A stretch of 64,000 bases of DNA from Thauera sp. 28. GTDB lineage: Bacteria; Pseudomonadota; Gammaproteobacteria; Burkholderiales; Rhodocyclaceae. Under the pieces are notes generated by a model, which saw nothing but the letters and a program-made list of their open reading frames with translations, had not been told where the DNA came from and did no database searches. The position numbers and the translations under genes are program-made. Below, one piece after another: positions 51,637 to 59,720 of this stretch. The DNA lies in NCBI RefSeq assembly GCF_000310145.2, contig NZ_AMXA01000014.1, forward strand, positions 1-64,000, given 5' to 3'. Numbering within the stretch: the first letter of the stretch is position 1; the number at the start of each line of letters is the position of its first letter.

Positions 51637-51800
51637 TCACCATCGGGCGGAAAACGATCACGGTGTCGGTCCTTCGCTCGGGCCGTACCGGCAAGCTATT
51701 GCCTCCGGTTGTGCGCCTTGGGCGCGCGCCGCTCGGCGTCCCGGATGCCGTGGCCTATGGCCTCCATTTTCTTCCGGCCTGGTTGGAGCTTTCGCAATGA
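51633..51800 (+). CDS. Small phage protein upstream of rep (55 aa)
   Basis: Frame of 55 codons starting MITIGRKTITVSVLRSG and ending PAWLELSQ. Its ATG overlaps the previous stop and its stop overlaps the rep start, both as ATGA. The double coupling supports a real gene; no function can be assigned. Confidence 0.6.
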   Translation: MITIGRKTITVSVLRSGRTGKLLPPVVRLGRAPLGVPDAVAYGLHFLPAWLELSQ

Positions 51801-52822
51801 GTACCGCCTTCATTGACTTCCTCGGCGTCACCTTCTGGATGGATGCCACCAACGCCAAGCAAAGCATCGAAATCCTGCTTCGCGGCTGGCTCGGTGTCGA
51901 AATCAAGGTGTCCGAGACCTGCAAGGGGTGGAACGGCTATAAGCACCGCCTTGACGTGGATGGGATTGGCCTTGTCGCATTCGGCGGCAACGGTGACACC
52001 GTGCATATCGAGATGACCGGCGCGGGCTGCATGCAAGTCAAGGATTGGGATGCGGTCGCCGATTCGCTCACGATGCTCGAAGCCCGTATCACCCGCCTGG
52101 ATTTGGCCGTCGATGATTTCGACGGCACCAGGTACAACCTGGATTGGTGCAAGGCGGCGTACGAAAGCGGCGAGTTCAATCCCGCGCGAGGCGCAAAGCC
52201 GGTGCCGCGTCTGGTCGATGACATGGGCAGCGGTAAGGGCTGCACGTTCTACCTGGGCTCACGCGAAAGCGGCAAGCTGTTTCGCGGCTACGAGAAAGGC
52301 AAAGAGCAGGGCGACCCGGCGTCGCCGTGGTTCCGCTGCGAGGTCGAATGGCGCAACCGTCACCGGGAAATTCCCGTCGATGCGATCCGCCAGCCGGGGA
52401 AGTACTTCGCCGGATCGTACCGCGCGTTCGAATCGCATTCCCTCGAACAGCGCGTGATCAAGACGATTGCGCACGTCGCTCAGGCGCACATCGAGCGAGC
52501 AACCGACCACGCCCGGAAGCAGGCCGGTCGCGTCATACATGGCCTGCTCGCCCTCGGCTTGACGGTGCAGGAAGTGATGGCGCGTCTGCATGTGCCTGAG
52601 TTGCCGAAGAAGCTGGTAGCGCCAATCCGCGCGTTCCTGGCTTTGGATGAGTCCGAGCGCACGTACACCACCGCCACCGCTCCGGCATGGGCGGCTAAAG
52701 CCACACCCGATGAGGTGTCAGACCTCTACAAGGCATTCCGGCTCCAGCGCGCGAAGTGGCGCGTAGGGCAGGGCACGAACGGCATGCATGCAGTTGAGGG
52801 GGTCGCATGGCTCGGCGCGTAG
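51797..52822 (+). CDS. Phage replication initiation protein (RstA-like Rep)
   Basis: Rolling-circle replication initiator of filamentous phages, 341 aa. Starts MSTAFIDFLGVTFWMDA; ITRLDLAVDDFDG and the HIEMTGAGC block match the Rep_trans (PF02486) family that includes CTXphi RstA. The ORF extends upstream to 51470 but that overlaps two small genes; the ATG at 51797 is coupled to the 55-aa ORF. It nicks the double-stranded origin and drives plus-strand synthesis. Origin location not determined. Confidence 0.88.
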   Translation: MSTAFIDFLGVTFWMDATNAKQSIEILLRGWLGVEIKVSETCKGWNGYKHRLDVDGIGLVAFGGNGDTVHIEMTGAGCMQVKDWDAVADSLTMLEARITRLDLAVDDFDGTRYNLDWCKAAYESGEFNPARGAKPVPRLVDDMGSGKGCTFYLGSRESGKLFRGYEKGKEQGDPASPWFRCEVEWRNRHREIPVDAIRQPGKYFAGSYRAFESHSLEQRVIKTIAHVAQAHIERATDHARKQAGRVIHGLLALGLTVQEVMARLHVPELPKKLVAPIRAFLALDESERTYTTATAPAWAAKATPDEVSDLYKAFRLQRAKWRVGQGTNGMHAVEGVAWLGA

Positions 52823-53373
52823 GTTTGCCGCCCGCGTTCTGCGGCCTCGAGCAACAACGGGTGTATGCGCCTGGAAACCTCGCCATTCCACATGAGTGGC
52901 AAGGGCGCGGACGCTGGCGGGGTGGCCCCCTTCATACGTTTGTAGATGACTACCGGCAAGAGTTCTTCTGGCGGCGACCGGAAGAGGGCGCGCTAATCGC
53001 GCGTGCAGCCGGGATCGTGACCGCACCTGATTTTACGGCGTACCTCGATGACCCCCAGCAGTGGCGCACGTACCAAGCGTGGCGCTCGGCCACAGTCGCC
53101 AAGTACTGGCAGAGCTTCGGCGTTTCGGTCCTCCCGGTCGTGTCGTTTCGCAGCGGCTGTGCGTACCACGTCGAAAGGGACTCCGTGTGGGCCATCCGCG
53201 CACCCCGGCCCGAGAACCGCCAGCAATGGGAAGAGGAAGTTACGAAGTGGGCGGAAGAGGCGGAACCGCTTGCGCTCGTCGTGTTTGGGCGTAGATGGGA
53301 GTGTTTTCTGCCCGTGCCGCTGGTCTGGCGAAGTCTTGCCAGCAAGGTTACTGCTGCACAAAAAGAGGCGTAG
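52807..53373 (+). CDS. DUF4417-like phage protein
   Basis: A 188-aa protein starting MARRVGLPPAF, overlapping rep by 16 bases. The central block EEGALIARAAGIVTAPDFTAYLDDP, and YQAWRSATVAKYWQSFGVSVLPVVSF, resembles the DUF4417 family seen in phages and plasmids. No known biochemical function. It lies between rep and the ssDNA-binding gene, so it may take part in replication or early regulation. Confidence 0.65.
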   Translation: MARRVGLPPAFCGLEQQRVYAPGNLAIPHEWQGRGRWRGGPLHTFVDDYRQEFFWRRPEEGALIARAAGIVTAPDFTAYLDDPQQWRTYQAWRSATVAKYWQSFGVSVLPVVSFRSGCAYHVERDSVWAIRAPRPENRQQWEEEVTKWAEEAEPLALVVFGRRWECFLPVPLVWRSLASKVTAAQKEA

Positions 53374-53375
53374 CC

Positions 53376-53579
53376 GTGGGGGGCAGAACACGACGGGAAG
53401 AGTACCCAGATAGGGAAAGCTGGATTACTGAGGTGTCAGATCAGCGCCTGGAACAGTACCGCCAGCTCACCTATGCCAGTGGTTTTAATCAGCGCATTGA
53501 TGGTGCATCCAGGTCGGGTGGCCAGCAATCATATTTCACAGACCTTATCGAACGCGAACGGGCGAGACGCCAGAAGTAA
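53376..53579 (+). CDS. Small phage protein, unknown function (67 aa)
   Basis: A GTG-started 67-aa frame (MGGRTRREEYPDRESWITEV ... ERERARRQK), 2 bases after the DUF4417-like stop. Highly charged with no membrane segment. Tight spacing supports it being a gene; function unknown. Confidence 0.5.
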   Translation: MGGRTRREEYPDRESWITEVSDQRLEQYRQLTYASGFNQRIDGASRSGGQQSYFTDLIERERARRQK

Positions 53580-53638
53580 CGCCCCAGGGACCTATGCCGC
53601 AAGTCCCGAAATCCTTAATAGCGGCTGGAGATTAAAAA

Positions 53639-53896
53639 ATGCGTTTCCCTTTCGAACTCACGGCATCCCGCGTCATTCAGGGTCGCAAAGACCCCTCGCG
53701 CCATTTCACCATCGTTGAAGGGCTGATCACCCTCCCGGACAACAAGCGCGTGTTCATGGAAGCGCTCTTGCCGGATCGCCAGCACTTCGTCCCTGGTCAG
53801 TACGCCGTGGAGGTCGCCCTTGACACCGACCGCAATCGCCGCCTCACCGCCTTCGTGCGTGCGCTGCATCCGGTTCAACAGAAAGCGGCTGCGTAA
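53639..53896 (+). CDS. Candidate single-stranded DNA-binding protein (gpV-like)
   Basis: An 85-aa protein in the position of the filamentous phage ssDNA-binding protein, upstream of the coat gene. Starts MRFPFELTASRVIQGRKDP; alternation of hydrophobic and basic/aromatic residues (FTIVEGLITLPDNKRVFMEAL) fits an OB-type beta-barrel. Length matches M13 gpV (87 aa). GGAGATTAAAAA precedes the ATG. Assignment rests on size and position as much as on sequence. Confidence 0.6.
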   Translation: MRFPFELTASRVIQGRKDPSRHFTIVEGLITLPDNKRVFMEALLPDRQHFVPGQYAVEVALDTDRNRRLTAFVRALHPVQQKAAA

Positions 53897-53901
53897 CCGT
53901 A

Positions 53902-54180
53902 ATGGCTCAGTGCATCCACATTGAATTGGACGGCACGCATTACACGTGGCCTATGACGGTGGAAAACGGCGTCGATGACTGCGGCGATTATTACCTCCTG
54001 GAACGGTCGGAGTATTACGACCTCACCCACGGACTTGCAAGTATTCCTGACTTTGCAACTTACGGCATCACGCCTGAAACGGTGACGGAAGTCGCCGCCT
54101 GGGGGTTCGGTGCCGTGATTGCGGGTTGGGCTTTGGGCCTCGTTACCGGATGGGTGGCAGAGGCAATTCGTAGGGCATAA
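53902..54180 (+). CDS. Small phage membrane protein (92 aa)
   Basis: A 92-aa protein with a polar N-terminal half and one membrane segment near the C terminus (EVAAWGFGAVIAGWALGLVTGWVAE). It lies between the ssDNA-binding and coat genes. Could be a minor coat or assembly protein; not recognised. Confidence 0.6.
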   Translation: MAQCIHIELDGTHYTWPMTVENGVDDCGDYYLLERSEYYDLTHGLASIPDFATYGITPETVTEVAAWGFGAVIAGWALGLVTGWVAEAIRRA

Positions 54181-54207
54181 CGCCCAATTTCAAAAGGAGT
54201 AGTACAA

Positions 54208-54342
54208 ATGGCTGACGTTCTCGCTGCTGTCTCGTTCGGTGACGCCCTCACCGCTGTGGTCGCCCTGCTGGTGGTCGGTATCGGCATCAACATGGCGTTC
54301 AAGGGCTCCGCCTTCGGCAAGCGCGCCATCAAGGCGGCGTAA
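54208..54342 (+). CDS. Major coat protein (pVIII), leaderless
   Basis: A 44-aa coat protein starting directly MADVLAAVSFGDALTAV. An acidic N-terminal half (Asp3, Asp12), a hydrophobic core and a basic C terminus (KGSAFGKRAIKAA) give the classical pVIII layout, but no signal peptide precedes it. Same length as the leaderless Pf3 coat (44 aa). AAAGGAGTAGTACAA gives it the best ribosome site of the prophage. Followed 2 bases later by a 33-aa ORF. Confidence 0.85.
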   Translation: MADVLAAVSFGDALTAVVALLVVGIGINMAFKGSAFGKRAIKAA

Positions 54343-54344
54343 AG

Positions 54345-54446
54345 ATGATCGCCGGGCCGATCCTCGCCTTGTTCTGGGTGATTGTTGCTCTGATCGGGGC
54401 GGCGGTCGCGCTCGCCATCGTCTGGGGTGTAGGGGGGCGCTTGTGA
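54345..54446 (+). CDS. Minor coat protein candidate (pVII/pIX-like, 33 aa)
   Basis: Frame of 33 aa, almost entirely hydrophobic (MIAGPILALFWVIVALIGAA) with a basic end (VWGVGGRL). Size equals M13 pVII (33 aa) and pIX (32 aa). It begins 2 bases after the coat stop and its own stop overlaps the GTG start of the adsorption protein gene. No enzymatic motif. Confidence 0.65.
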   Translation: MIAGPILALFWVIVALIGAAVALAIVWGVGGRL

Positions 54447-55924
54447 GAGCGCTCCGCCTCGCCTTGTTCTTCGTCGTCGGGCTCCTGTTCGGGGGCGCGG
54501 TGACGTTCGCGTATGCGCAACAGCAGCTCAACGGGCCAGCGCGCTACGGATCATCGATCAACTTCAACTACCCCGACGGCATCAACGCCCCTCGCCGTAC
54601 GGGTGGCCCGATCTACGATTTCCCAGACGCCCCCGATGGATGGGGAAAGATGCGGGACATCAACAAAATCAAGATGGGTTCGCATACGTTCGATGTGCAT
54701 GGGGTACGCAAGTTCTCGCCGGGGACGCTCGCAAAGATGGGCGTCGGCCTAGCCAGGAAAGCCGGTCCCATTGGTATTGGGCTCACGCTCGCGGACCTCG
54801 TATGGGATGAGGCCCAAGGCTGGCTGATTCCCGGAGAAGACGACGGTCAGCCCGACCCGACGCTGGGCGGTTTTACCGTGATCGGCGGTTTCAGTGGCGG
54901 AGATGTCTTCCCAACTCGACATTGCTTTGATGCGCGAAAGGCTGTCGCTGAGGCATTCGCAGGTTGGTGGGACCCCGATAAAACCGCCTTGGCGAACAAA
55001 GTCGGGCAAGCCGCGCCGGTCACCATTACTTGCATTGTTTCGGACGGCCCGCCTGTCCAAACGATCACGTACACAAAGGCCGATGCATCACTCACGACGG
55101 TTGACCGCATCCGTATTCGTTATACCTATAACGGAAACAATCAATATGCGTATATGAGATACAGCGGTGCCGAGATTTGTGAGAGCGGCCAACGTTTGAC
55201 CGTTAGTGGCCGATGCGTCAATCCGACCCGACCAGCGACGGACAAAGAACTCGAAGATGCCATTTACGTTGATCTAGTTGGGCGGGGCATGGGCTCGGAC
55301 CTCGCAAGGCGCTTGATTGAAGCGGGCTACACGCCCACACCTGACGGCCACGAGGCGGACGGCCCGACGACCGTGCCGGGTGAGACGACCACGACCACTA
55401 CCACCAGTCCGGCGGGCACCACGACCATCACCACCAACACCACCAACAACCTCACGTACAACACGAACACGACGAACAACACGACCACGATCACGATCAC
55501 CCAGACCACGACGACCACGACCACGAACCCGGACGGCACCCAGACCGAAAGCACCGAGACGAAACAGCCACAGCCGGGGGAGCGCGAAGAGCCCGAGCAA
55601 TACAGCCTCACCTATTCGCCGTCATCTCTCCCGGAGGTGCCAGACTTCTACGAGCAGAAATACCCGGACGGGTTTGCGGGAGAGTGGGACGGCTTCAAGC
55701 AGCGTATTGACGGGTCCAGTCTGGCGAACTTCATGCGGTCGCTCACCAACGGCATACCGTCTGGCGGTGAGTGCCCATCGTGGTCGCTCACGTTCAACTT
55801 CGGGGCAATGGGCAATTTCGGCACGATGGTCATGCAGCCGCCGTGCATCATCTGGCCGTTCATCAAGGCGGTGATGATTCTCAGCGCCTTGTTCGTCGCG
55901 CGGCGCTTAGTCATAGGGGGCTGA
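54443..55924 (+). CDS. TspB-like phage adsorption protein (pIII)
   Basis: A 493-aa surface protein starting at GTG, coupled to the preceding 33-aa ORF. Signal peptide (RALRLALFFVVGLLFGGAV ... AYA before QQQ), globular N-terminal region, then a long low-complexity Thr/Asn-rich linker (about 325-380), and a C-terminal domain ending in a membrane segment (WPFIKAVMILSALFVARRL). The C-terminal GECPSWSLTFNFGAMGNFG block resembles the Neisseria TspB family carried by MDA phage. In this phage it is the likely receptor-binding protein. Confidence 0.78.
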   Translation: MRALRLALFFVVGLLFGGAVTFAYAQQQLNGPARYGSSINFNYPDGINAPRRTGGPIYDFPDAPDGWGKMRDINKIKMGSHTFDVHGVRKFSPGTLAKMGVGLARKAGPIGIGLTLADLVWDEAQGWLIPGEDDGQPDPTLGGFTVIGGFSGGDVFPTRHCFDARKAVAEAFAGWWDPDKTALANKVGQAAPVTITCIVSDGPPVQTITYTKADASLTTVDRIRIRYTYNGNNQYAYMRYSGAEICESGQRLTVSGRCVNPTRPATDKELEDAIYVDLVGRGMGSDLARRLIEAGYTPTPDGHEADGPTTVPGETTTTTTTSPAGTTTITTNTTNNLTYNTNTTNNTTTITITQTTTTTTTNPDGTQTESTETKQPQPGEREEPEQYSLTYSPSSLPEVPDFYEQKYPDGFAGEWDGFKQRIDGSSLANFMRSLTNGIPSGGECPSWSLTFNFGAMGNFGTMVMQPPCIIWPFIKAVMILSALFVARRLVIGG

Positions 55925-55925
55925 C

Positions 55926-56282
55926 ATGGGTGCAGTGTTCGCCGCCATTGGGCGGTTTTTCTCGGACCTGCTCAAGGCGATTACTGATGGTCTCGATTTC
56001 ATCGCGCGTCTCTTCGTGCAGGTCTTCGTGGATCTGTGGGAGTTCGCAACGGACTTGCCGGTATGGATCTTCGCCCAAGTCCTCGACATCGCAGCGGCGG
56101 CGGTGGAAGCCCTCGACCTCGACGGGCTCACACAATACGCCTCGACCTGGGGCGCGTTGCCAGCGGAAATCCTCAATGTGCTGGGCTTGATCGGACTCGC
56201 CGAGGCGCTCGGCATCATCGCCACAGCGGCGCTCATCCGGCTGGCAATGCAGGTGATTCCGTTCGTTCGCCTGGGCTCCTGA
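55926..56282 (+). CDS. DUF2523-type minor coat protein (pVI-like)
   Basis: A 118-aa mostly hydrophobic protein with about three membrane segments (MGAVFAAIGRFFSDLL; ATDLPVWIFAQVLDIAAAA; ILNVLGLIGLAEALGIIATA). Position between the adsorption gene and zot and the DUF2523 appearance fit filamentous phage pVI, which caps the virion next to pIII. Confidence 0.7.
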   Translation: MGAVFAAIGRFFSDLLKAITDGLDFIARLFVQVFVDLWEFATDLPVWIFAQVLDIAAAAVEALDLDGLTQYASTWGALPAEILNVLGLIGLAEALGIIATAALIRLAMQVIPFVRLGS

Positions 56283-56283
56283 C

Positions 56284-57510
56284 ATGATTAATCTTCTGCT
56301 AGGTGCTCCAGGGGGCGGCAAAAGCTACGAGGCCGTCGCGTACCACGTCCTGCCGGCCTTGTCGCAGGGTCGCAAGGTCATCACGAACCTGCCGCTGCAA
56401 CTCGATGAAATCTACGCGCTGGAGCCGTCCTATGCGGGCCTGATCGAGCTTCGGCACGAGACCAGGGCACCACGCCGCAATGACGGCAAGTATCAGAATC
56501 GAGCGGCCTTCAGCCATGCCGAGGACTACGGGGACGACTGGAGGCACCCCGAGACGGGAGCCGGCCCGTTGTATGTCATCGATGAGTGCCACATTCCTCT
56601 GCCCGCGCAAGGCACGCCGATTGAGGTCGAGCACTGGTATTCCCTTCACCGGCACGAGTCGGCTGACGTGCTCCTGATCACCCAGAGTTACGGCAAGATC
56701 AACCGCGCGATCCGCGACCTCGTTCAGGTGGTCTATCGCGTGCGCAAGGCGACCGCGCTCGGCACCAGTACGAGTTACATACGGAAGGTGCAGGACGGCC
56801 TACGCGGGGCCGTAGTCAACGAAGCCGTTCGCAGCTACAAGCCGGCGTACTTCAAGCTGTACAAGAGTCACACCAGGGGAGGGGGGGCCGAACTCGCAGC
56901 GGGCGACATCCGCCCGATCTGGCATCACTGGTCGTTCAAGGGTGCAGCGGTCCTCCTGCTGGGCGGGCTCGGATACCTCATCTTCGGCGATTGGGCACTC
57001 TTCCCGGAGCCGAAACAACCGGAGCCACGCCCGACCGGGCAACAACAAGTACAGACACAGCCCACGGTGGTCGCCGCACCCGTGCGGACACACGAGCCTG
57101 ACCGCGTAACGACGGCAGCGCCACCAGTCACAGCGCCGGTCGCCAGCTCGAAGCGGGCCCCATTCGATGGCCTGGGCATGCACGTCACCGGCTATATCCA
57201 GATGGGCGATCGTATCCGCTATGGACTCGCGTTCAGCCAGAACGGTCAGGTAGTCCGGCAGACCACCGACGAAGAGCTACGCACAGCGGGCTATGGCGTC
57301 GAGCCAGTGGGCGAGTGCCTATTCAGGGCCACCTACGAGGGCAACGCCATGTGGGTACGATGCGATGCACCTATGGCAACGGTCACGCCGTTCGGGGGCG
57401 TCACCACAGCAAGGCCGACCGCAGCGCAGACTGACGGGGGGGACCCCGCTCGCGGGGGGGACCCGGCAGGGAAAGCGCCGGGCGGAACCGTGAAGGAAGT
57501 CACGAGCTAA
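56284..57510 (+). CDS. zot: Zonula occludens toxin-like assembly ATPase (pI)
   Basis: A 408-aa inner-membrane ATPase for virion extrusion. Walker A GAPGGGKSYEAVAY at the start, Walker B LYVIDECH, one membrane segment near residues 220-240 (AAVLLLGGLGYLIF), then a Pro/Gln-rich periplasmic tail. The family name comes from Vibrio Zot; here it is an assembly protein. It needs an outer-membrane secretin, and none is encoded in the prophage. Confidence 0.92.
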   Translation: MINLLLGAPGGGKSYEAVAYHVLPALSQGRKVITNLPLQLDEIYALEPSYAGLIELRHETRAPRRNDGKYQNRAAFSHAEDYGDDWRHPETGAGPLYVIDECHIPLPAQGTPIEVEHWYSLHRHESADVLLITQSYGKINRAIRDLVQVVYRVRKATALGTSTSYIRKVQDGLRGAVVNEAVRSYKPAYFKLYKSHTRGGGAELAAGDIRPIWHHWSFKGAAVLLLGGLGYLIFGDWALFPEPKQPEPRPTGQQQVQTQPTVVAAPVRTHEPDRVTTAAPPVTAPVASSKRAPFDGLGMHVTGYIQMGDRIRYGLAFSQNGQVVRQTTDEELRTAGYGVEPVGECLFRATYEGNAMWVRCDAPMATVTPFGGVTTARPTAAQTDGGDPARGGDPAGKAPGGTVKEVTS

Positions 57511-57538
57511 CCAGGGCCGTCCCGGTATATTCCGGCGC

Positions 57539-57802
57539 ATGGAAACCCATGTCATAACCATCGCCGGTGTCCTGGTAGCCGTATTGCTCATGCTGCTTCT
57601 TGTACGCCGTCGCCGACGCAAGACGCCGACCTCGAGAGGGATCACCCGGCCACGCCATGATCCGTTACTGACTGCCTGCCTGGGCGATGCTGCGAAGGCG
57701 CAACGCCTCGCAGAGTACGAGCGCAGGAGGCATCCATACCTTTCGATGGAGCAAGCGCGCCAACTGGCGTACGAGAAGCTGACCGAAGATCGCAGGCGCT
57801 GA
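57539..57802 (+). CDS. Small phage membrane protein (87 aa)
   Basis: An 87-aa protein with an N-terminal membrane segment (HVITIAGVLVAVLLMLLLV) followed by RRRRRK and a charged C-terminal part containing EQARQLAYEKL. Last rightward gene of the structural run. Unknown role; not recognised. Confidence 0.55.
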   Translation: METHVITIAGVLVAVLLMLLLVRRRRRKTPTSRGITRPRHDPLLTACLGDAAKAQRLAEYERRRHPYLSMEQARQLAYEKLTEDRRR

Positions 57803-57853: not shown

Positions 57854-58582
57854 TCACGCAGCTTCCTTAGGGGCGCGGCCCAGTGAGAATTGAGAATGCT
57901 GTTGCTGCCACAAGTGGAACTTGTCCATTTCTAATGGCATCAGTGCGCTCCACCCCATAGGCCAACCCATCATCCACTCTTCGAAACTGGCGCAGCGCAC
58001 CGAAGCAATCTCCGTCCCACGGAATGGATTCCCTGAACCTCCCCACTCGTCCAGCCTGCCGGCTACATGGTTCTTCCCTGATGTGCAGCCGCTCGGCGTC
58101 GGCCACAACCCAGAGGCGATCACGCTTATGGGGCGCTCCGCAATCGGATGCTGATAGACGCAGCCACTGCGCGTCATACCCCAATTCGGCAAGGTCACTG
58201 ATGACCACGGCAAGGCCTCTTCCCACAAGCAGCGGTGAGTTCTCCACGAAGACAAATCGAGGTCGTACTTCACCGACGATTCTAGCCATCTGCCGCCAAA
58301 GCCCTGAGCGCTCTCCAGATATGCCAGCGCCAAAACCGGCGGAGGATATGTCCTGGCACGGAAACCCGCCAGAAACCACGTCAACAAGGCCGCGCCATGG
58401 TCTTCCGTCAAAACTGCACACGTCAGACCAAATCGGGAAAGCTGGGAGGGCTCCATCGTTTTGCCTAAGCGCCAGAACTTGTGCGTCGTAGGCATCACGT
58501 TCAACTGCGCAGATGGTGCGCCATCCCAGCAGGTGGCCGCCGAGTATTCCGCCACCAGCGCCTGCGAAAAGAGCCAGCTCAT
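57854..58582 (-). other. Second open frame overlapping the methyltransferase gene (242 codons)
   Basis: A frame of 242 codons, offset by +1 from the methyltransferase and open over its full length, ending 13 bases beyond it. Its product is not random: SSWRTHRCLWEEAL, VTLPNWGMTRSGCVYQHP, SGLWPTPSG and MMGWPMGWSALMPLEMDKF recall, from memory, phage proteins found next to or fused to cytosine methyltransferases. Whether this frame is translated is unknown. Listed separately because both frames may carry protein information. Confidence 0.45.
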
Positions 58583-58586
58583 TCAT
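57867..58586 (-). CDS. Orphan phage cytosine-C5 DNA methyltransferase
   Basis: A compact 239-aa C5-methyltransferase from the ATG at 58586. Motif I LFAGAGGGILGG, motif IV GGFPCQDIS with the catalytic Cys, motif VI VFVENSP, motif VIII GAPHKRDRLW and a short C-terminal motif X region AIRNGQVPLVAATAF are in order. The target recognition part is very short. In motif X the usual Gly-Asn reads Arg-Asn. No restriction enzyme is nearby, so an anti-restriction role is the natural inference. It lies opposite to the phage structural genes. Confidence 0.82.
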   Translation of the reverse strand: MNELALFAGAGGGILGGHLLGWRTICAVERDAYDAQVLALRQNDGALPAFPIWSDVCSFDGRPWRGLVDVVSGGFPCQDISSAGFGAGISGERSGLWRQMARIVGEVRPRFVFVENSPLLVGRGLAVVISDLAELGYDAQWLRLSASDCGAPHKRDRLWVVADAERLHIREEPCSRQAGRVGRFRESIPWDGDCFGALRQFRRVDDGLAYGVERTDAIRNGQVPLVAATAFSILTGPRP

Positions 58587-58629
58587 AGTCCCTTCCACAC
58601 GATATTCCGAATAGCCGAAACAGGCAGGA

Positions 58630-58896
58630 TCAACGAGCGATTCCGTAGAAGTTGCAGTCACGCACGCCGTAGAACCGGATCGCCTCCGCGCGCACCAGTC
58701 GCGCAGTGTTCGCGGCACCGTTACTGCTGTGACGGTCGATCAGCCGCAGCGCTTCGGCGATGAGGGCGCGTGCCTTCTTCAGCGGGTCTTGAGCAGCCCT
58801 GATCCGGTCTGCAATTCGGCCTGTTATGTCGGCGAGTGCCAACACCATCTGACGGGACAGGAATTCTGCTGACTTGCGAAGGCTTGCGGGGATCAT
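58630..58896 (-). CDS. Phage protein of unknown function (88 aa)
   Basis: An 88-aa, helical, basic protein (MIPASLRKSAEFLSRQMVLA ... CNFYGIAR) 43 bases upstream of the methyltransferase on the same strand. GGTAGGAGAGAAAACC gives a good ribosome site at 58896; the frame is also open to 59145 but that upstream part covers the structured intergenic region. Not recognised; probably co-transcribed with the methyltransferase. Confidence 0.6.
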   Translation of the reverse strand: MIPASLRKSAEFLSRQMVLALADITGRIADRIRAAQDPLKKARALIAEALRLIDRHSSNGAANTARLVRAEAIRFYGVRDCNFYGIAR

Positions 58897-59635: not shown

Positions 59636-59720
59636 TGGTGCGGGGAAAGAGACTCGAACTCTCACGCCTTGCGGCGCTGGAACCTAAATCCAGTGCGTCT
59701 ACCAATTCCGCCATCCCCGC
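59636..59720 (-). tRNA. tRNA-Leu (anticodon UAG)
   Basis: 85-base tRNA including an encoded CCA. Acceptor arms GCGGGGA/TCCCCGC, anticodon stem CTGGA-TTTAGGT-TCCAG with anticodon TAG, variable arm GCGCCGCAAGGCGT (class II) and T-arm GAGAGTTCGAGTCTCT. It reads leftward, 152 bases right of attR, and is not interrupted by the prophage. Confidence 0.95.

Follow-up and report, generated by a model that had tools for sequence, protein, structure and literature searches.

M.EcoHK31I and M.EaeI are C5-cytosine methyltransferases made of two subunits, and the small subunit of M.EcoHK31I is read in another frame inside the gene of the large subunit. In PMC3404938, the large subunit of M.EcoHK31I is described as carrying motifs I to VIII and motif X together with a predicted target-recognition domain (TRD), and the small subunit as carrying motif IX; the same paper presents M.AquI as an enzyme split before motifs IX and X, with both motifs in the small subunit. 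The prophage C5 enzyme M.BatI, whose recognition domain is very short, is reported in PMC8936443 to be active when a single gene is cloned. For phage ShiLan, an out-of-frame HNH endonuclease gene within the phage methylase gene is reported in PMC11855218.

In the present study we have analysed a locus in which a C5-cytosine methyltransferase gene (frame 0, product alpha) shares its DNA with an open +1 frame (product beta). The locus lies in the window, that is, the whole stretch of 64,000 nucleotides of Thauera sp. 28 DNA analysed here. From the sequence evidence we consider it very probable that the locus encodes one two-subunit C5-cytosine methyltransferase, in which alpha would hold motifs I to VIII and X and beta the recognition segment and motif IX, both being made from neighbouring starts on one mRNA. 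An account of such an overlap in phages was sought in an open-access library, and none was listed there.

By its description, M.EcoHK31I (YGGCCR) resembles the locus in having a large subunit with motifs I to VIII and X; the motif-IX-like block of beta may correspond to the motif IX on its other subunit. The locus differs in that the start of beta follows that of alpha by only 4 nt, so that the two genes overlap over nearly the whole of alpha, in that the recognition segment seems to lie in beta whereas the TRD of M.EcoHK31I is predicted in the large subunit (PMC3404938), and in that it is located in a prophage and has relatives in many phages and genomes. With M.AquI (CYCGRG) it would share the split and the presence of motif IX on the second polypeptide; motif X is in alpha here, whereas the small subunit of M.AquI carries X as well as IX (PMC3404938). 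The single-chain enzymes M.HhaI and M.HaeIII (PF00145) possess the same catalytic domain as alpha, but single-chain C5 methyltransferases contain the whole profile in one chain, and among our control loci of this type the +1 frame was open in 0/29 and the spacing of motifs IX and X described below was seen in 0/30. ShiLan likewise has an out-of-frame gene inside a phage methylase gene; the inserted homing endonuclease is, however, a separate element and not a part of the enzyme (PMC11855218). Relative to the known two-subunit enzymes, the new aspects are the nearly complete overlap, the apparent placing of recognition in the +1 frame and the wide spread. If the overlap in M.EcoHK31I is as given above and the sequences are related, the locus would be better placed within the kind of M.EcoHK31I.

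Layout of the locus

An initial annotation, which gave no strand, had described a methyltransferase frame and a +1 frame as both open and protein-like at this place. We confirmed this on the minus strand, at 57867-58586 and 57854-58582. The features are the following:

57867..58586, minus strand: frame 0 (alpha), ATG start, 239 amino acids, predicted C5-cytosine methyltransferase catalytic subunit
57854..58582, minus strand: +1 frame (beta), ATG start, 242 amino acids, overlapping gene with putative recognition segment and motif IX
58576..58586, minus strand: double start ATGAATGAGCT; upstream, the +1 frame is closed by the inner TGA, and it opens with the second ATG
58590..58596, minus strand: Shine-Dalgarno-like GGAAGGG, read from the sequence, preceding the ATG of alpha by 3 nt and that of beta by 7 nt
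58353..58370, minus strand: motif IV of frame 0, GGFPCQ, which contains the catalytic Cys77; constraint on the +1 frame is lowest here
57983..58111, minus strand: GLWPTP and target-recognition-like segment of the +1 frame, GKNHVAGRLDEWGGSGNPFRGTE; identity higher in +1 than in frame 0
57950..57979, minus strand: motif-IX-like stretch EWMMGWPMGW of the +1 frame, residues 202-211, with residue conservation in 68 sequences
57897..57935, minus strand: motif X of frame 0, IRNGQVPLVAATA, overlapping the C-terminal part of beta; N220 invariant in alignment A2
51668..57802, plus strand: inovirus-like prophage genes (replication initiator, DUF2523, Zot-family protein), adjoining the pair
59636-59720: tRNA-Leu gene, beyond the methyltransferase pair

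In the window sequence the ATG of beta is located 4 nt downstream of that of alpha, and the +1 frame is open over its full length. A GTG at 58718 is a possible earlier start of frame 0; homologues align from 58586. The pair is found at the right-hand end of the inovirus-like prophage, on the strand opposite to the prophage genes, which match Rep_trans (E 3.5e-19), DUF2523 (7e-7) and Zot (5e-24), and a 7.1-kb IMG/VR contig (L007) carries the same pair at 100% identity. The position at the edge of a prophage makes protection of phage DNA from restriction a likely function.

Frame 0 and the catalytic motifs

The frame 0 product matches PF00145 (DNA_methylase) with an E value of 4e-29 over profile positions 4-169 of 324 only, which correspond to motifs I to VIII, and an in-frame motif X follows. 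Against TIGR00675 it reaches 73.3 bits, below the cut-off of 100.65, over positions 4-161 of 329, and it thus lacks what defines a single-chain C5 methyltransferase, namely all motifs in one chain and a score above this cut-off. A motif IX was looked for in the frame-0 translation of the window and none was seen; frame 0 has the composition of an M.EcoHK31I-type large subunit, with I to VIII and X present and IX absent. The motif names I to X represent a reading from the PF00145 and PDB alignments combined with the known motifs of C5 methyltransferases. Residues G73-C77 and the motif-X residue N220 are invariant in the frame-0 alignment A2.

The matches of frame 0 among PDB sequences are M.HaeIII and M.HhaI. 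An AlphaFold2 model of alpha (pLDDT 77) was aligned to the chains of these two enzymes over about 167-217 columns, the best Foldseek results being M.HaeIII (1dct, E 4e-14, 29% identity, 173 columns) and M.HhaI (2uz4, E 8e-13, 24% identity, 217 columns). In the proposed enzyme alpha would supply S-adenosylmethionine binding, the catalytic Cys in PCQ, motifs VI and VIII, and motif X.

The protein encoded in the +1 frame

Beta gave no match to Pfam or to PDB sequences. Among the PHROG families it matches phrog_1008, named 'DNA methyltransferase' (E 1.2e-8), and phrog_26627 (E 6e-9), as well as 35493 and 27243. Both phrog_1008 and phrog_26627 are matched by 68/68 +1 proteins of alignment A1, which bears out the earlier suggestion that families of phage proteins are read in an overprinted frame of the enzyme. 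In Gordonia and Streptomyces phages phrog_1008 covers a +1 protein that combines, in a single frame, the recognition segment with motifs IX and X, and in Salmonella phage S9-5 (1/13 annotated records) its positions 36-141 and 248-281 are found in the +1 frame and its positions 275-316 in frame 0. A Gordonia protein matches phrog_116 at 424-487, and positions 212-382 of phrog_116 match frame 0 of the window. Thus, phrog_1008 and phrog_116 tie beta-type proteins to the C-terminal part of the methyltransferases.

In the 68 sequences E202, M205 and P208 of beta are invariant, and W203, W207, G210 and W211 are conserved in at least 90%, the consensus of the block being LNPxWVEWLMGWPIGW. When beta was compared by hhalign with a profile of 33 methyltransferase ORFs, which includes L354, in which no motif IX was seen, the sole local match was to their motif IX, and a weak one (probability 0.1-0.2%, E 0.3-0.5); the PHROG matches given above are the stronger links. 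On this short-motif and profile evidence the block EWLMGWPxGW seems to be the missing motif IX of the enzyme, and the segment ahead of it is likely the target-recognition segment. The sequence GKNHVxGRLDEWGGSGNPFRGTE is common to seven loci from two subfamilies, L002 and L088 being nearly identical among them. This recognition-like segment shows a mean pairwise identity of 71% in the +1 frame versus 44% in frame 0, with the +1 value higher in 21/21 pairs, and being better conserved in +1 it seems to be held by that frame here. In this respect the analysis goes beyond the initial annotation, as the +1 frame seems to carry both the missing motif IX and the recognition segment and the pair reads as one split enzyme, in which beta would supply the parts missing from alpha. 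An AlphaFold2 prediction of beta alone gave a poor fold and no usable model (pLDDT 56, pTM 0.26).

WPTP-type units, located between GLWPTP and motif IX, vary in number in beta, with one in the window and more in L029, L066 and other loci; these might be tandem recognition units.

Register of motifs IX and X

The Pro of motif IX in the +1 frame precedes the Asn of motif X in frame 0 by 32 nt in 176/180 distinct segments, by 38 nt in 3 and by 20 nt in 1. The register was counted where both motifs were detected, that is in 214/356 entries (355 loci and the window, some contigs being counted twice), corresponding to the 180 distinct segments. Detection by set was 61/79, 49/62, 25/80 and 62/80, while a search by motif pattern for the same arrangement in 30 single-chain loci gave 0/30; such pattern counts are rough, as the IX and X patterns miss variants and the IX pattern, having been adjusted to the phage type, picked up an in-frame motif IX in no more than 7/29 single-chain controls. 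The 32-nt register is also present in a Mycobacterium phage, a Microcystis phage, a Leptospira plasmid and a Lacticaseibacillus plasmid.

Three loci from genomes of the window's class (L349, L350 and L352) encode distant methyltransferases with a +1 motif-IX-like block 38 nt from motif X, possibly reflecting a separate origin or a shifted register.

A two-subunit enzyme or two independent proteins

We infer that beta is expressed by initiation at the second ATG, that it forms a heterodimer with alpha and determines its specificity, and that the complex has an anti-restriction role. Following this proposal, a single mRNA would give rise to both subunits, which would pair into an active C5-cytosine methyltransferase; its marks on the prophage DNA would most likely serve as protection from restriction by the host. 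Should this pairing hold, seemingly truncated methyltransferases would prove complete, a role could be given to phage families that lack one so far, and the overlooked frame would be the place to look for methylation specificity. The locus would then be, in addition, a long and widespread example of one DNA sequence shared by two proteins of the same complex.

The +1 frame might instead be a real overprinted gene whose product is an independent accessory protein, for instance anti-restriction or regulatory, with alpha acting as a complete minimal enzyme or together with a host partner. The selection tests described below show just that the +1 frame is coding, beta alone has neither a confident fold nor a PDB match, and M.BatI, whose recognition domain is very short, is reported active from one gene (PMC8936443), all of which would agree with such a protein. 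However, alpha is devoid of motif IX and a motif-IX-like block is present in beta at a fixed spacing, the phrog_1008 and phrog_116 matches connect beta-type proteins with the C-terminal part of methyltransferases, and fused and re-split relatives exist, and we therefore regard this explanation as unlikely.

Start region and route to two proteins

The pair of start codons is conserved. In 99 distinct contexts the alpha/beta starts are ATG/ATG in 57, GTG/ATG in 28, TTG/ATG in 3, ATG/GTG in 3, TTA/ATG in 2 and others in 6. A Shine-Dalgarno motif was counted in 88/99 of these contexts and in 74 of them it stands 4-5 nt before the alpha start, hence 8-9 nt before that of beta; the GGAAGGG of the window is a weaker form, outside the motifs counted. 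For the two-subunit enzyme, one Shine-Dalgarno site serving both starts is probably the simplest route to both subunits, in which ribosomes would load at this site and start at either of the two codons 4 nt apart.

The initial annotation had left open whether the phage families arise from an overprinted frame or from frameshifting. Programmed frameshifting would join the N-terminus of alpha, with motifs I to VIII, to the C-terminus of the +1 protein, with recognition and motif IX, and such a joined frame is indeed present in the DNA of L118 and L164, while a 15-G tract lies between the frames in L147/L150. A fusion, however, would lose motif X and needs neither the +1 start codon nor +1 codons 1-70, both of which are conserved, the latter also under selection (dNN/dNS 0.37, dSN/dSS 0.20). 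Since the +1 start, 4 nt after that of frame 0, and the selected +1 N-terminus are conserved, a frameshift product is not supported as the main route, and we find programmed frameshifting very unlikely as an explanation of the locus. Of the earlier interpretation, the overprinted and conserved coding frame thus stands, with purifying selection and protein families in +1, and frameshifting as the main route finds no support.

Openness of the +1 frame and selection

Loci for the viral set were chosen solely by frame 0, and the best 80 of 238 relatives were taken; 77 of the 80 are distinct over the first 480 nt and one (L007) is the window's own prophage. No +1 stop occurs before the last ten codons in 79/80 of these loci, and each of the four other frames is open in 0/80. 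Counting up to the frame-0 stop, there are no +1 stops in 56 loci, one in 23 and two in 1, while synonymous codon shuffling of the same 80 loci predicts 3.7 +1 stops per gene, with a probability of an open frame of 0.004 in the median and 0.10 at maximum. In the bacterial-genome set, formed by the best 80 of 448 hits picked with a frame-0 alignment, 77/80 are without a +1 stop in the same stretch and stops are present in 3/80; 0/80 are open in the +2 frame. The single-chain control, defined by an end-to-end PF00145 match in one frame (29/30 loci usable), showed an open +1 frame in 0/29, with a median of 18 +1 stops and a longest open +1 run of 64 codons in the median and 263 at maximum. The openness of the +1 frame is far from chance. 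Two of 63 loci, L118 and L120, have a broken beta with frame 0 still open.

Two candidate controls were rejected: L150-L229, taken as 'single-frame', proved to form a second subfamily with overlapping frames, and a Lacticaseibacillus gene shows the overlap itself. Pairwise +1 similarity was dropped as proof, because other frames also look similar when synonymous sites are conserved (17 pairs). The argument was built instead on counts of stops, on synonymous constraint at individual sites and on substitution ratios for the two frames. For these ratios, substitutions were counted by their effect in both frames, the +2 frame serving as the sole control.

In 44 independent close pairs, drawn from loci chosen by frame 0 together with loci chosen by +1, the +1 frame gave dNN/dNS 0.36 and dSN/dSS 0.28, against 1.59 and 0.94 for the +2 control. 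A replicate with 17 genome pairs picked on frame 0 gave 0.41 (CI 0.35-0.47) and 0.41 (CI 0.31-0.55), with +2 values of 1.59/1.05, and 18 pairs of the second subfamily, picked by the +1 motif, gave 0.47 and 0.41, with +2 values of 1.42/0.85. The constraint on beta is relaxed over codons 75-105 (0.63/0.58). The fraction of identical frame-0 codons in 15-codon windows is 0.76-0.82 over codons 25-63 and 0.84-0.85 over 193-215, and drops to 0.35-0.46 over codons 73-103, where the catalytic motif of frame 0 faces a variable +1 protein; the synonymous sites of codons 81-95 fall to 0.35, close to the random level, which is about 0.33 in pairwise tests. Frame 0 is better conserved over codons 1-160 and the +1 frame over 200-215, which indicates a division of labour along the gene.

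Individual fourfold sites of frame 0 spell +1 hallmarks. Codon 209 is GCC in 106/106 sequences and spells the motif-IX Pro of beta, codon 226 is GTG in 109/109 and spells a Trp, codon 230 is GCA in 108/108 and spells a His, codon 136 is GGG in 112/113 and spells a Gly, and codon 217, also among these sites, is GCC in 101/102. Averaged over all 50 conserved fourfold sites, the diversity of the third base is 0.385, with values of up to 0.74. This set was reduced from 143 to 113 sequences by dropping L133, L145, L147, L148, L149 and duplicates; it is shared with the start-context, same-codon and 44-pair analyses, and its loci were selected partly by frame 0 and partly by +1.

The +1 protein is under purifying selection, and with a frame open beyond chance this is what characterises an overlapping gene. 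A check of synonymous constraint in both frames had been suggested in the initial annotation, for which conservation not exceeding what frame 0 imposes, and a lack of database proteins read in +1, would have spoken against its idea; both the fourfold sites and dNN/dNS reveal +1 amino-acid conservation beyond that imposed by frame 0, and database proteins in +1 exist. That the +1 frame is a mere spandrel, open and similar only through frame-0 composition and common ancestry, could appeal to pairwise +1 similarity being indecisive on its own, other frames being similar as well with conserved synonymous sites, but is extremely improbable given the 3.7 stops expected, the median probability of 0.004, the +2 ratios near or above 1 and the near-invariant synonymous sites that spell beta residues.

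Rearranged forms and spread

Other distributions of the motifs over the two frames were found among the relatives. Motifs I to VIII, recognition and IX are joined in one frame in L118 and L164. In L134 and L136 frame 0 ends before motif X, and IX and X stand together in the +1 frame; an AquI-like split with overlapping frames was observed in these two loci, in Gordonia phage Upyo and in Streptomyces phage Vash. Motifs IX and X in the small subunit, the mark of the M.AquI type, were found in L134, L136, L232 and L235, and in the window motif X is in frame 0.

In the second subfamily a +1 motif-IX-like block is present in 59/72 ORFs of at least 200 codons, that of L173 (VLDLPMGH) being probably due to chance; for the remaining 13 ORFs the block is in frame 0 in two (L150, L164) and in no frame in 11. 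The motif-IX pattern was detected in +1 of 62/80 loci of the bacterial-genome set and in frame 0 of one, some of the misses being variants. From 185 sampled genomes belonging to the window's class we chose ten further loci in which the PF00145 match is partial or broken. The arrangement is visible in translation in L349, L352, L353 and L355, and in L350 by motif pattern only; motif IX is in frame 0 in L351, L357 and L358, and L354 and L356 showed neither. Genome matches come mainly from Pseudomonadota, by record title, and other titles name Akkermansia, Phycisphaerae, Anaerolineales, Desulforhopalus, Spirochaetales, Fluviicola and Patescibacteria, many of them metagenome bins.

Of the 13 annotated phage and plasmid records (L002-L006, L230-L237), 10 give just frame 0 and one, PP083311, just the +1 frame. 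The two others, MT521997 and MK450421, give both, and in these the annotated start of the second gene is well inside a longer open +1 frame. Gene callers tend to keep one frame, so that 11/13 records lack one half of what may be a single enzyme.

We lean towards the view, with some reserve, that overprinted two-subunit C5 methyltransferases are a common and old architecture of mobile elements, in which several lineages would keep motif IX in +1 over motif X in a near-fixed register and many 'truncated' methyltransferases and unexplained phage families would be their two halves. The lineages considered are the window's subfamily, the FFAGIG/YGNAINAEAA subfamily, the Lacticaseibacillus plasmid type and several of the sampled genomes of the window's class.

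In L147:1423-1437 (IMGVR_UViG_3300048918_000106), 15 consecutive G are located between motifs VI and VIII, with motifs I to VI in frame with recognition and IX, and VIII and X in another frame; this may be due to slippage, phase variation or an assembly error. The 'dcm' gene of the Lacticaseibacillus plasmid (L238:1375-2157) has no in-frame motif IX and contains a long open +1 stretch that ends in EFQETMMGFPKGWTDLKH.
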